Virus record (IMG/VR): IMGVR_UViG_3300030389_003133
Location: 1 to 59,669 of that record
DNA: 59,669 nt
Strand: one strand, 5' to 3'
DNA from: a virus
The notes below the pieces were generated by a model, which ran no database searches, had not been told where the DNA came from, and saw only the letters and a program-made list of their open reading frames with translations. The position numbers and the translations under genes were made by a program. Below, piece after piece: positions 41,618-45,942 of the stretch. Position 1 is the stretch's first letter. Each line of letters starts with the position of its first letter.

Positions 41618-41648
41618 TTTGGTAGTTTACAGAAAAGAACTATATTTG
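41618..41648 (+). promoter_or_regulatory. Main early promoter (TTTG-N19-TATATTTG)
   Basis: TTTG at 41618-41621 and TATATTTG at 41641-41648 fit the Bacteroidota primary sigma consensus exactly. Start of transcription is expected near 41655. Confidence 0.7.
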
Positions 41649-42361: not shown

Positions 42362-43393
42362 ATGAGAAATTTATTAAACAACGGGGTTAAATTCGAAACT
42401 CTAAACGATAACACAAGACGTGGCGAAATTGTCAGTTATCACTGTAAGCCAAACCCCATTGACCGCTCAAAAGCGGAACAAGTCGACATCAACGGTTTAA
42501 AACCCGTCGACCGTCAGAACGTCAAAATTGACGGGGACGAGTTCGAGAGCCGTTTCAAAATTGGTATGGAGTTCGAAAAGAACCGTTTGAATCGTGGTGC
42601 CGTCCAAGAGTACCCGTTATTCTGTGGGTTCGAGAGAGACAGTTCCTGCGGTTTTAGGTCAGGTCAGGGGGGCTATGAAGCGGTAACCCATATAATACCG
42701 CTTATCGGTCCTAGTATGTGGCGAACAAAGGTCTTTAATATGTTCCACGAAGCACGAAAAATAATCGATGATAATTACAGTCCGTCAAACAGTCGTTGCG
42801 GTGGTCATATTACTTTATCGGTTGACGGTATGAGCGGTGCGGACCTGATGCAAAAAGTGAGAAAATTTTCTCCCGTTATACTTGCTATCTTTAGACACCG
42901 CCTGAATAACGGTTATTGTATGGGTAACCCTCAAATGTTGCCTAGTGTATACGACGGGGTCAATTCAAGCCGTTACGACGGCTCCCGTAAGTACGTCGTT
43001 TGTAAGGATACGGGGTTCGGTATCGAGTTCCGTTTGCCGTCCCGTTTCACGTCTGTGAAGCAAACAATAAGACGATACGAGATAATGTATCACCTCTTAG
43101 ATTTTTCGGTCAACAAACCTAATGCGACCTTGCACAAGTTCCATAACACGTTGAAACCTATTTTAATTTCAATGTACGACGGGAATATTGACAAAGTTGA
43201 TGCGGTCATAGATTTGGCGAAGCACTTCGCCAAGTTTATGGAAACGGGCAAAGTGAATCAACACACCGCCCCATGGCTAGAGGGTTGGTGGTCACGACGT
43301 AACCGAGCCTTTGGGTCTTATAGAAGTTGCTATCAAAGAAACTTCAGACCCGACCAAGACACCGTTTTAGAATGGTTGAGGGTTAACGGTTGA
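42362..43393 (+). CDS. Amidoligase-like enzyme (343 aa)
   Basis: Resembles the glutamine-synthetase-fold amidoligases (Amidoligase_2): IGMEFE (67-72) with the metal-binding acids, FERDSSCG (90-97), EAVTHI (106-111), RCGGHI (145-150), and IEFRLPSR (221-228) matching the family's late E-x-R motif. These enzymes are predicted to join amines or amino acids to carboxylates with ATP. In known family neighbourhoods they pair with class II amidotransferase and AIG2-like proteins, and such a fusion lies three small genes downstream. The substrate is unknown. Confidence 0.68.
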   Translation: MRNLLNNGVKFETLNDNTRRGEIVSYHCKPNPIDRSKAEQVDINGLKPVDRQNVKIDGDEFESRFKIGMEFEKNRLNRGAVQEYPLFCGFERDSSCGFRSGQGGYEAVTHIIPLIGPSMWRTKVFNMFHEARKIIDDNYSPSNSRCGGHITLSVDGMSGADLMQKVRKFSPVILAIFRHRLNNGYCMGNPQMLPSVYDGVNSSRYDGSRKYVVCKDTGFGIEFRLPSRFTSVKQTIRRYEIMYHLLDFSVNKPNATLHKFHNTLKPILISMYDGNIDKVDAVIDLAKHFAKFMETGKVNQHTAPWLEGWWSRRNRAFGSYRSCYQRNFRPDQDTVLEWLRVNG

Positions 43394-43431: not shown

Positions 43432-43484
43432 TACCGTCGGCGGATGTGTATTCGCCCTGATGAGTTCGAAAGAACGAAACGGTA
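43432..43484 (+). ncRNA. Hammerhead ribozyme 1 (type III)
   Basis: Stem III: UACCGU (43432-43437) pairs with ACGGUA (43479-43484). Cleavage triplet GUC, expected cut after 43438. Stem I: GGCGGAU/AUUCGCC, loop GUGU. Core CUGAUGA (43457-43463). Stem II: GUUC-GAAA-GAAC with the preferred G-C closing pair. Core GAA plus A at 43476-43479. All invariant core bases are present. It lies between the amidoligase stop and a small membrane-protein gene, 69 nt before its ATG. Confidence 0.92.
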
Positions 43485-43507
43485 ATTTTAATTTAATACT
43501 TATAAAA

Positions 43508-43729
43508 ATGAAAACTTTAAACATTATTCAAAATTCAATCTTAACAATCGTTACACTGTTTGTAATTTCTACATCAATGCGTATACTTTGGCACGTCATC
43601 ACAACCGACGGGGTCGGGGTATCGTGGGCATCTGTAGGGGTCGGGTTATTGTTGGGGTCGTTCCTTGCCTTTCTATGTGGAATGGTCATCACGTTGGTGG
43701 TCAACCTATGGAAAGAAACAATAGCATAG
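43508..43729 (+). CDS. Small two-TM membrane protein (73 aa)
   Basis: ATG at 43508 (MKTLNIIQNSILTIVTLFVI); longer versions would run through the ribozyme. Two hydrophobic helices (about 6-25 and 42-66) with a G/V-rich second one. Function unknown; membrane localisation likely. Its mRNA would be released by ribozyme 1. Confidence 0.7.
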   Translation: MKTLNIIQNSILTIVTLFVISTSMRILWHVITTDGVGVSWASVGVGLLLGSFLAFLCGMVITLVVNLWKETIA

Positions 43730-43746
43730 GCAGAGTCTAAGGGGTT

Positions 43747-43762
43747 GTGTCTTTAAAGACAC
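43747..43762. repeat. GTGTC palindrome copy, upstream of ribozyme 2
   Basis: Perfect copy, 17 nt after the stop of the 73-aa gene. GGGG and CCCC flank it and extend the stem. Confidence 0.95.
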
Positions 43763-43768
43763 CGCCCC

Positions 43769-43817
43769 CCGTAACGGGATGAGTGTCCCGTCTGATGATT
43801 CCAAAAGGATGAAACGG
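43769..43817 (+). ncRNA. Hammerhead ribozyme 2 (type III)
   Basis: Stem III: CCGU (43769-43772) with ACGG (43814-43817). Cleavage triplet GUA, cut expected after 43773. Stem I: ACGGGA/UCCCGU, loop UGAGUG. Core CUGAUGA (43792-43798). Stem II: UCC/GGA with loop AAAA; the position normally G-C (10.1-11.1) is U-U. GAAA at 43811-43814. 63 nt before the next ATG. The mismatch could slow cleavage. Confidence 0.82.
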
Positions 43818-43836
43818 TAACTTAAAATTTAATAAA

Positions 43837-43974
43837 ATGAAACTAGAAAACTTTAAATGGACAGACGAACTTGTAATGCGATTTGATGGTACATTATTTA
43901 CCTTCGGTCAAAGTAAAGAAAGTAAGATAAAAGAGTTCAAAGAAATGATAATTAATGAATTAAACAATCAATAA
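43837..43974 (+). CDS. Small protein (45 aa)
   Basis: MKLENFKWTDELVMRFDGTL, then FTFGQSKESKIKEFKEMI. Starts just after ribozyme 2 with the leader CTTAAAATTTAATAAA and ends 1 nt before the next ATG. Unknown. Confidence 0.7.
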   Translation: MKLENFKWTDELVMRFDGTLFTFGQSKESKIKEFKEMIINELNNQ

Positions 43975-43975
43975 T

Positions 43976-44161
43976 ATGTATACAGTAGTAGGACCGTGGT
44001 CCAATGAAAAAACCACACAATGTGTAATTGAAAAGATACACAGTTGGAGTTATGAAACCAACAAAGGATACATTAACAAGAATTATTGTTATTGTAATGA
44101 AGCGACCGCAAAGGTTGGCGACACAATAAAAGTAAAGGAAAGATTTTTACAAAACTTTTAA
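43976..44161 (+). CDS. Small protein (61 aa)
   Basis: MYTVVGPWSNEKTTQCVIEK, with a Y/N/C-rich middle and KVGDTIKVKERF at the end, beta-rich. Coupled to its neighbours by 1-nt gaps. Not recognised. Confidence 0.65.
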   Translation: MYTVVGPWSNEKTTQCVIEKIHSWSYETNKGYINKNYCYCNEATAKVGDTIKVKERFLQNF

Positions 44162-44162
44162 T

Positions 44163-44336
44163 ATGGAAGCACTAAAGTCTTATACAATTTACTACAAAGG
44201 AAAGCCCGTCTCACGAGAGGCGGGTTATACCAAGTACCACGCCCTAGACAAGGCGTATACAAATTTGTCTCAAAAATACAAAGGTATCGAGAGAAAAAAC
44301 CTAGACACCAAAAAAAATAAATTTGGTTATGTCTAA
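44163..44336 (+). CDS. Small basic protein (57 aa)
   Basis: MEALKSYTIYYKGKPVSREA, then GYTKYHALDKAYTNLSQKYK. Its 3' end overlaps the -33 box of the promoter for the amidotransferase fusion. Confidence 0.65.
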   Translation: MEALKSYTIYYKGKPVSREAGYTKYHALDKAYTNLSQKYKGIERKNLDTKKNKFGYV

Positions 44337-44353
44337 ATTTTGTCGTATCTTTG
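44322..44353 (+). promoter_or_regulatory. Early promoter (TTTG-N20-TATCTTTG)
   Basis: TTTG 44322-44325 and TATCTTTG 44346-44353, an exact Bacteroidota-type pair, upstream of the amidotransferase fusion. Confidence 0.7.
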
Positions 44354-44373
44354 TTTAATATTAATCGAGTTCT

Positions 44374-44389
44374 GTGTCTTTTTAGGCAC
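44374..44389 (+). repeat. Degenerate GTGTC element in a 5' leader
   Basis: GTGTCTTTTTAGGCAC departs from the palindrome at three positions but can still fold as RNA (GUGUCU/AGGCAC, loop UUUU, one G-U pair). The hairpin thus survives although DNA symmetry is lost. Confidence 0.55.
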
Positions 44390-44408
44390 CGCTCACAAAT
44401 TTAATTTT

Positions 44409-45497
44409 ATGTGTATTATAATAATCAAACAGAAAAACAAAGTAGTACCACGTGAGGTACTCAAAACAAGTTCACGAATCAATCCACACGGGTTGGGTAT
44501 TGTTTGGCTTGACACGTTCGAGACTACATACCACAAGTCAAGAGAATACAAAGTATTGTATACCGACAGACCGTACATCGCTCACTTTAGATATGCTACA
44601 GTTGGGAAAGTTTGCAGAGCAAACACACACCCGTTTGTATGCGGACACAACAAACACGAGTTGCTTATGATGAACGGTACAGTTCACGGGTACGGCAACA
44701 AGAATATGACCGACACCGAGGACCTAGCAATCAAGTTAGGCAGGACACCACGTCACACGTGGAAACAATCCCTAGCCAAGTTTGATGCTCGATTCGTAGC
44801 AATTAACACACGCACACGGTCGTTTCAAATCTTTAACAAGCACCTCTATACATTGAGAGACGGGGTTTGGTATTCAAAGACCAACGTCCTACAAGATAAC
44901 CTCATTGCGGTCTATGGCACATTGCGTAAGGGTAACGGTAACTATTACCGTTACTTGCGTAATGCAAAGCACTTAGGAACGGGAAAGACCAAGTACAAAT
45001 ACCCTATGGTTTCAAACGGTATACCGTACGTCATTCCCGAAAAGGGAAAGGGTCACAACGTAGTTGTTGACGTGTTCAAAGTCAGCGACACCACGTTGCA
45101 GAGAGTGGACAGTTTGGAAGGTCATCCCAAGTGGTACAAGCGAAAGCAGATACTTGTCAAAGTCAATGGCAAGGAGTACCCTTGTTGGTTGTATTTCAAC
45201 GAGGGAGCGAAAACTCAGTGGAACGGGTCAAACCACATCGCCGACTTTAACAACAGACCCAAGCCCAAGTTTACATTTACGAGGCACCCCGAGGCAGATG
45301 CTGAGGACGTGTTCAAGTTTGAGGACTCGCCTGAGTGTACTCAAATAGATATGTATAACGAGTTCGACCGCAGTAAAGAAAAACCGATTTGTATTGACTG
45401 TTATCACGACCTTGAGTTCGACGGGTTTGCTAACTATCATTGCAACGGTTGTGACGGTTGGTTCACGGAAGAAGAAGTGTTACGGTTCCAAGACTAA
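44409..45497 (+). CDS. Class II glutamine amidotransferase fused to AIG2/GGCT domain and zinc ribbon (362 aa)
   Basis: ATG at 44409 chosen because Cys2 (MCIIII) is the Ntn nucleophile after Met removal. Amidotransferase part: PHGLGIVW (26-33), AHFRYATVG (58-66), NTHPF (72-76), NG (89-90) and TDTEDL (101-106). From ~166 an AIG2/gamma-glutamylcyclotransferase domain: VYGTLRKG (168-175) and DSLEGHPKWY (234-243) with the family's catalytic Glu. The C-terminus has C328-x2-C331 and C345-x2-C348, a zinc ribbon. With the amidoligase nearby, it may make or trim gamma-glutamyl/amide conjugates on a peptide or nucleotide target (inference). Confidence 0.85.
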   Translation: MCIIIIKQKNKVVPREVLKTSSRINPHGLGIVWLDTFETTYHKSREYKVLYTDRPYIAHFRYATVGKVCRANTHPFVCGHNKHELLMMNGTVHGYGNKNMTDTEDLAIKLGRTPRHTWKQSLAKFDARFVAINTRTRSFQIFNKHLYTLRDGVWYSKTNVLQDNLIAVYGTLRKGNGNYYRYLRNAKHLGTGKTKYKYPMVSNGIPYVIPEKGKGHNVVVDVFKVSDTTLQRVDSLEGHPKWYKRKQILVKVNGKEYPCWLYFNEGAKTQWNGSNHIADFNNRPKPKFTFTRHPEADAEDVFKFEDSPECTQIDMYNEFDRSKEKPICIDCYHDLEFDGFANYHCNGCDGWFTEEEVLRFQD

Positions 45498-45510
45498 CCT
45501 AAGTAAGCTC

Positions 45511-45526
45511 GTGTCTTCAAAGACAC
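45511..45526. repeat. GTGTC palindrome copy, upstream of ribozyme 3
   Basis: GTGTCTTCAAAGACAC, 13 nt after the stop of the fusion gene. Flanking GCTC/GGGC extend the stem. Confidence 0.95.
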
Positions 45527-45530
45527 GGGC

Positions 45531-45583
45531 TACTGTTCAGGAATGTGTGTTCCTGCTGATGAAGTCAAAAGACAGAAACAGTA
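45531..45583 (+). ncRNA. Hammerhead ribozyme 3 (type III)
   Basis: Stem III: UACUGU (45531-45536) with ACAGUA (45578-45583), showing a C-G to U-A covariation against ribozyme 1. Cleavage triplet GUU, cut expected after 45537. Stem I: CAGGAA/UUCCUG, loop UGUGUG. Core CUGAUGA (45556-45562). Stem II: GUC/GAC, loop AAAA, with A-A at 10.1-11.1. GAAA at 45575-45578. 63 nt before the ATG at 45601. Confidence 0.86.
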
Positions 45584-45600
45584 ACTTTAAATTTAATAAA

Positions 45601-45942
45601 ATGAATATAGACTTAACACATTTGTCAGAACGAAAGGTCGGACAAAGACAAACAGAAAAAACTATATACCACAATCCACGAACTAACTTGTTTGGATTTA
45701 GCGGAGACGGTATTGGTTTTGTGAAGTACGTAAAGAGCCGTGGCGAAATTCAAAAACGTCAGAACGGATTTACGAAATGGTACCACGGGTCGAGCAATAC
45801 TTTAGTGGAAGCGGTCCGCAACATACGTAAGTGGTACGGCTTGAACGTATCGCCAAGTGGTTGGAACAAGTACCGAGTGAAGTACAGAAACTTAGAGACC
45901 AACGAATTAATTAAAACTTTGTATAACGAAATAAATAAATAA
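45601..45942 (+). CDS. Unknown protein (113 aa)
   Basis: ATG at 45601 (MNIDLTHLSERKVGQRQTEK); upstream extension would cross the ribozyme. Basic, mixed alpha/beta, NLFGFSGDGIGFVKYVK core. Not recognised. The mRNA should start with the ribozyme's 3' product. Confidence 0.65.
   Translation: MNIDLTHLSERKVGQRQTEKTIYHNPRTNLFGFSGDGIGFVKYVKSRGEIQKRQNGFTKWYHGSSNTLVEAVRNIRKWYGLNVSPSGWNKYRVKYRNLETNELIKTLYNEINK

Follow-up and report, generated by a model that had tools for sequence, protein, structure and literature searches.

What are the three small elements of 49-53 nt that each occupy a gene gap in the rightward operon of a phage genome, and what would they do to its transcript? The stretch analysed here, the IMG/VR record IMGVR_UViG_3300030389_003133, positions 1-59,669 (the window; coordinates are those of its + strand throughout), contains a rightward operon that begins at about 41.7 kb, and three of its gaps each hold one such element, named here hammerhead ribozymes 1 to 3 (HHR1, HHR2 and HHR3; Table 1). 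We consider it well supported, with a probability of about 0.82, that all three are genuine, selected type III hammerheads whose co-transcriptional self-cleavage would split adjacent cistrons.

Each copy has three helices arranged round the core, with stems I and II closed by loops and stem III open, as in type III hammerheads, and each has the fixed core C3 U4 G5 A6 N7 G8 A9 / G12 A13 A14, the A15.1-U16.1 pair and an H17 other than G. A first-pass annotation had folded hammerheads at these positions by reading stem I, CUGAUGA, stem II, GAAA and a stem III closing on GUC, GUA or GUU; all of these parts are seen in the respective copies, and the sequence confirms the C-G to U-A change that it noted in stem III from copy 1 to copy 3. 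Its description of the three as complete is right for HHR1, but it overlooked mismatches in the other two. The pair N10.1-N11.1 beside the core is present in HHR1 (G-C) and absent in HHR2 (U.U), where stem III is also just 4 bp long, and in HHR3 (A.A). The unpaired 10.1/11.1 excludes these copies from the strict consensus, not from the family, because a U10.1-U11.1 mismatch is tolerated and has been published as active (Perreault et al. 2011, PMC3088659).

Table 1. Hammerheads, predicted leaders, palindromes, genes and candidate promoters in the window
Feature	Position	Strand	Remarks
HHR1, type III hammerhead, class G10.1-C11.1/GUC	43432..43484	+	predicted cut after C43438; stem III 43432-43437/43479-43484; stem I 43439-43445/43450-43456; CUGAUGA 43457-43463; stem II 43464-43467/43472-43475; GAAA 43476-43479
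HHR2, type III hammerhead, class U10.1.U11.1/GUA	43769..43817	+	predicted cut after A43773; stem I 43774-43779/43786-43791
HHR3, type III hammerhead, class A10.1.A11.1/GUU	45531..45583	+	predicted cut after U45537; stem I 45538-45543/45550-45555
Predicted 69-nt 5'-OH leader of gene at 43508	43439..43507	+	from sequence; comprises stems I and II and an A/U-rich start region
Predicted 63-nt 5'-OH leader of gene at 43837	43774..43836	+	inferred from sequence
Predicted 63-nt 5'-OH leader of gene at 45601	45538..45600	+	inferred from sequence
Palindrome GTGTCTTTAAAGACAC, just 5' of HHR2	43747..43762		end 11 nt ahead of predicted cut
Palindrome GTGTCTTCAAAGACAC, just 5' of HHR3	45511..45526		end 11 nt ahead of predicted cut
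GTGTCTTNNAAGACAC palindrome sites	2852, 9841, 21679, 28859, 39981, 41468, 42330, 43747, 45511, 47121, 48986, 49928, 53082, 54316
343-aa gene, upstream neighbour of HHR1	42362..43393	+	weak glutamine-synthetase/YbdK-like predicted fold
73-aa open reading frame (ORF) between HHR1 and HHR2	43508..43729	+	translation; homologues in L144 and L061
45-aa ORF 3' of HHR2	43837..43974	+	translation
362-aa gene, upstream neighbour of HHR3	44409..45497	+	gamma-glutamyl cyclotransferase (GGACT) domain; PF06094 E 8.7e-22; PHROG 2520
113-aa ORF 3' of HHR3	45601..45942	+	translation
Candidate Bacteroidota-type promoter (TTG-N-TAnnTTTG), ahead of rightward operon	41619..41648	+	consensus match only
Candidate Bacteroidota-type promoter, ahead of the 44409 gene, in a gap without hammerhead	44323..44353	+	consensus match only

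The motif CTGATGA-N6-20-GAAAC occurs three times in the window against 0.06 expected, and a strict type III scanner likewise returns three matches, compared with one over 200 dinucleotide shuffles. A covariance model (R2) built from 150 hammerheads on other contigs, with the window and the fetched loci L144 and L061 left out, scores HHR1, HHR2 and HHR3 at 68.3, 69.5 and 70.6 bits (E ~1e-17), the next-best match in the window reaching 13.7; its rows had been gathered with an earlier model, R1, which had included the three window copies. Run on both strands of the window with filters off, R1 found no fourth copy. The first-pass annotation had said that the lack of a model hit above threshold would tell against it, and a search of the window with Rfam at the gathering threshold indeed gave no match, whereas R2 recovers all three elements at the positions proposed. 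The best Rfam family for HHR1 and HHR2, RF00008 Hammerhead_3, shares their architecture, core and GUH site, but all window copies lie below its gathering threshold of 48.5 bits (HHR1 46.7, HHR2 29.3) and HHR3 is not listed. Since these sub-threshold matches and the window-free model agree, the absence of Rfam matches reflects low sensitivity of the Rfam model, which under-detects this phage subfamily, and not the elements themselves.

All three hammerheads recur, in unchanged order, in L144 (5047-5099, 5382-5434 and 7025-7077), whose proteins are mostly 60-98% identical to those of the window, and in the more distant L061, where the orthologue of HHR3 lies at 2874-2926. The core classes are also unchanged in both: G-C with C17, U.U with A17 and A.A with U17. 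Between the window and L144, a U-A pair in stem III of HHR3 becomes C-G, and the 10.2-11.2 pair of HHR2 turns from U-A to A-U while the adjoining U.U mismatch is kept. Across 57 diverse cores, in rows preselected for pairing, 91.6% of pair cells are standard and double changes number 327, against 89 in shuffles. Because those rows had been chosen for pairing, a cleaner test is provided by IMG/VR matches picked by core letters alone, among which stems I and III are completed in 121/131 U.U (92%), 168/186 G-C (90%) and 20/31 A.A cores (65%); shuffled flanks complete them in only 0.5-0.8%. The loops are strongly conserved across 240 cores, with U-G-[UA]-G-U-[GA] in loop I and AAAA in loop II. Fast hammerhead cleavage needs a tertiary contact between loops I and II, which these loops may make.

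Sufficient flanking sequence was available for 275 distinct hammerheads. In 227 of them, an ORF of 35 aa or more starts 10-39 nt to the 3' side, compared with 36/315 random positions, and a same-strand stop within 100 nt upstream is found for 227/275. Copies within a locus are co-oriented in 88/89 loci, and 1-5 copies per record were found in 30 hammerhead-bearing phage records searched whole. In an IMG/VR sample selected solely by the 343-aa protein encoded upstream of HHR1, referred to below as amidoligase-like, a strict hammerhead directly follows the gene in 56 of 79 usable loci, and inspection by eye adds about nine loci with variant hammerheads, such as those with an extra U following A9. 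Core variants of this kind, or with a U4C core, were noted in L319, L326 and L376, after the amidoligase-like gene, and at L205:10164-10216.

We infer from these features that the transcript is cut as follows. As RNA polymerase passes, each hammerhead would fold and cut its own strand after H17, the 2'-OH of H17 attacking the next phosphate. The upstream message would be left with a 2',3'-cyclic phosphate end, and the downstream message would begin with a 5'-OH at the stem I hairpin. The earlier claim of 63-69 nt between element and start codon agrees with the cut-to-start leaders in Table 1. A polycistronic transcript would thus be converted into separate mRNAs, with stability and translation uncoupled. 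The suggestion that the elements act as intercistronic processors is well supported by full covariation, the orthologues, the conserved gap position and known active relatives. Cleavage rates would probably differ among the three copies, the canonical HHR1 being the fastest, to judge from mutational work cited in PMC3088659.

Several points weigh against such a function. The folding energies of the three elements are not significantly different from those of shuffled sequences (z -0.8 to -1.8), and no assay of an A.A core is known to us. Stem II of HHR2 and of HHR3 opens with a mismatch of the kind usually filtered out by Perreault et al. (PMC3088659). Finally, the uncultured podovirus MW202828, a relative whose gene order is the same, has no hammerhead; therefore, the function must be dispensable or replaceable.

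It is possible, although we would not call it probable, that the main role of cleavage is to make a special 5' end, with the 5'-OH and the stem I and II hairpins shielding the downstream mRNA from 5'-end-dependent decay or insulating its start site, and that separation of cistrons is secondary. The spacing from the ribozyme to the downstream start codon is kept within narrow limits and the upstream distance is looser, as such a role would predict. However, it is the upstream neighbours that are conserved (54 amidoligase-like and 30 gamma-glutamyl cyclotransferase (GGCT) genes among 268 that form 110 clusters), whereas the downstream genes turn over, with 166 clusters among 285, a comparison in which the downstream ORFs are shorter and harder to cluster. 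Conserved upstream and variable downstream neighbours therefore implicate the upstream 3' end at least as much.

The three copies also differ in a way that recurs across the family. Among 349 distinct phage-type cores, those with G-C at 10.1/11.1 have C17 in 159, A17 in 31 and U17 in 9; the 128 U.U cores have A17 in 115, U17 in 13 and C17 in none; and the 15 A.A cores have U17 in 12, C17 in 3 and never A17. The difference in C17 frequency between G-C and U.U cores is significant at p 2e-55. A viral sample without selection on either site gives the same picture (G-C with C 52, A 14 and U 1; U.U with A 32 and U 6; A.A with U 4 and C 1), and in loci found by the upstream protein all 18 U.U cores have A17. 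The mutual information of H17 with 10.1 and 11.1 tops that of all non-helix positions. The single U.U core with C17 that is known has a U4C core change. Watson-Crick complementarity between H17 and 10.1, found in 83% of cores, was dropped as the best rule, as the off-diagonal pairs track 11.1: in the few cases available, G.U and C.U go with A17 and U.C goes with C17, which suggests that 11.1 rather than 10.1 is the partner of H17. Position 11.1 is the nucleotide immediately 5' of G12, the general base acting on the 2'-OH of H17; since it adjoins G12, an indirect effect on H17 is plausible.

The operon in the window has one ribozyme of each class, and the A.A class occurs in 14 loci besides that of HHR3. 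Tentatively, and at less than even odds, we propose that the cores form three or more interchangeable classes that tie H17 to 11.1 (C11.1 with C, A or U17; U11.1 with A or U17 and almost never C17; A11.1 with U or C17 and never A17), that A10.1.A11.1/U17 is an undescribed active core, and that one of each class in a fixed order would give graded cutting of one transcript. The idea that genomes with several copies purposely mix classes is unsupported, mixed pairs being no commoner than expected.

An unlikely source of the H17 pattern is common descent of a few ribozyme lineages with no functional coupling. The tree of the upstream protein yields two well-supported independent contrasts (5-6 using all branches), a number that does not suffice for a sign test, and to that extent leaves room for descent. 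On the same tree, however, the U.U state arises in several separate places, each time with A17; stem and loop sequences are not grouped according to class, a U.U core having a G-C core as its nearest neighbour in 13/16 cases; and the association persists in 43 non-redundant cores more than 12 positions apart (p 3e-7).

That HHR2 and HHR3 are decaying relics and HHR1 alone cleaves is quite improbable. Their mismatched 10.1/11.1, the short stem III of HHR2 and their low or missing Rfam scores would fit decay, but U.U activity is published (PMC3088659), each of the two classes is found again in many phages, with stems that are intact and covary (128 distinct U.U and 15 distinct A.A cores), and the orthologues retain the mismatch while adjacent pairs change compensatorily. 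Type III hammerheads are also known to flank and release units in circular RNAs. Although the 335-nt unit between HHR1 and HHR2 has suitable ends, release of a unit to be ligated into a retrozyme- or viroid-like circle or kept as a small stable RNA is very improbable, as copies are irregularly spaced (270-5855 nt, median 1180) with several ordinary genes between them, many loci have a single copy, and Perreault et al. sought circular products and found none (PMC3088659).

Phage hammerheads, triple arrangements and the idea of RNA processing by them are already known. Tandem and triple hammerheads around prophage genes, with a proposed role in cutting polycistronic RNA, were described by Perreault et al. 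in 2011 (PMC3088659), and tandem copies of phage and prophage origin cleave in vitro; those of A. tumefaciens also do so in E. coli (PMC3088659). Three in one operon, which had looked unusual at first pass, is therefore not new, and it falls within the copy numbers of the phage records searched here. The published systems (the A. tumefaciens ardA locus, C. scindens and A. caulinodans) resemble the window in having several co-oriented hammerheads that flank single genes or short blocks in phage-type DNA, with an identical core and the same proposed role. They differ in the genes involved; in the window, all three copies are of type III and resemble each other in their loops (mostly UGNGUG in loop I, AAAA or GAAA in loop II), and an A.A copy is not mentioned in the main text of that study. 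What small self-cleaving ribozymes do in bacteria and phages is still described as unclear (PMC7151607).

The closest known relative of HHR2 is the Bruynoghevirus PaP3-type hammerhead, with 93.6% identity over 47 nt in 65 Pseudomonas phage records, including the U.U, A17, stem II and the loops. Unlike in the window, it is a single strong copy, which abuts the first annotated rightward ORF in PaP4 and Clew-1. A PaP3 hammerhead is among the active variants of Perreault et al. (PMC3088659), and, judging from PaP4 and Clew-1, it would be this HHR2-like element. PaP4 and Clew-1 also have a second, weak hammerhead-like match (18 bits) ahead of another gene (L003:1705-1760, L004:2349-2402), with a stem I that is unpairable by eye. 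In cultured Flavobacterium Elemovirus phages, a type III hammerhead (45.3 bits) lies on the minus strand shortly before a start codon (MT497065 18490-18544, NC_055853 17866-17920). In GTDB genomes the loop pattern was found in only 18 stretches, several of which belong to Patescibacteria bins, whereas IMG/VR has at least 119; because of this imbalance, the subfamily seems to be mainly viral. The loci with it in bins of Patescibacteria and other Candidate Phyla Radiation groups are L298, L299, L302-L304, L307, L309-L311 and L313-L315.

Other RNA elements lie beside the amidoligase-like gene in some loci. In a related phage, L394:2901-2978 is a type-P3 twister ribozyme (61.8 bits, above the cut-off) directly ahead of the amidoligase-like gene; it resembles the window copies as a self-cleaving ribozyme in a gene gap, but its fold is unrelated. 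The slot after the amidoligase-like gene holds half-tRNA-like folds, with acceptor stem and T-arm (TTCGANT loop), at L334:3880-3922, L358:3879-3921 and L329:3970-4027, and less perfect ones in L337, L343, L364 and L381. These folds were not called by ARAGORN or Rfam, and real tRNAs in the hammerhead slot were ruled out, as ARAGORN finds none there; they are possibly RNase P substrates. If the half-tRNA folds and the twister were also processing sites, it would be RNA cutting at this point that is conserved and not one kind of ribozyme, which is offered as a lead only.

Two of the three hammerheads in the window are preceded by a palindrome. The dispersed 16-bp sequence GTGTCTTNNAAGACAC has 15 sites in the window at up to 2 mismatches, against 0.4 expected, and in protein-selected loci it lies at most 80 nt upstream of the hammerhead in 70/117, against 5% expected. 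As intrinsic terminators the palindromes were rejected: at HHR2 and HHR3 they lack a following U-run, and many sites fall within ORFs. They might form a hairpin left at the new 3' end or, because ORFs contain 134 of the 479 distinct core sites of the window and fetched loci, they might be operator- or stoperator-like DNA-binding sites.

The genes of the operon give some indication of its setting. The closest relative of the portal protein is that of MW202828 (76%), followed by Maribacter phage Panino, Flavobacterium elemo phages and Cellulophaga phages; on the basis of these relatives, the host is likely within Flavobacteriia. Recombination, primase-like and helicase genes lie downstream of the hammerhead region, which makes it plausible that this is an early operon. 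The 343-aa protein gave no match in Pfam or PHROGs, and its predicted fold (predicted local distance difference test score 65) weakly resembles glutamine synthetase and YbdK (template modelling score 0.2-0.35). Together with the gamma-glutamyl cyclotransferase gene five genes on, this makes an amidoligase a possible, fair guess. The N-terminus of the 362-aa cyclotransferase protein is weakly class II amidotransferase-like, and the two genes may form a phage peptide-modification pair in one operon. The 73-aa product is probably a membrane protein.

As far as searched, the A.A/U17 class, the coupling of H17 to 11.1 and the conserved slot after the amidoligase-like gene are new; no report of the coupling was found in the literature searched, which was mostly without subscription journals and without the supplementary alignments of PMC3088659. 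The coupling amounts to a natural mutational experiment on a very well-studied ribozyme, and it could be examined with nine simple constructs. Related copies in cultured Flavobacterium and Pseudomonas phages make the predicted 5'-OH mRNA ends directly checkable there. More broadly, this large natural data set places phage hammerheads in one defined position, the gap between stop and start codon, which has been maintained over large divergence.

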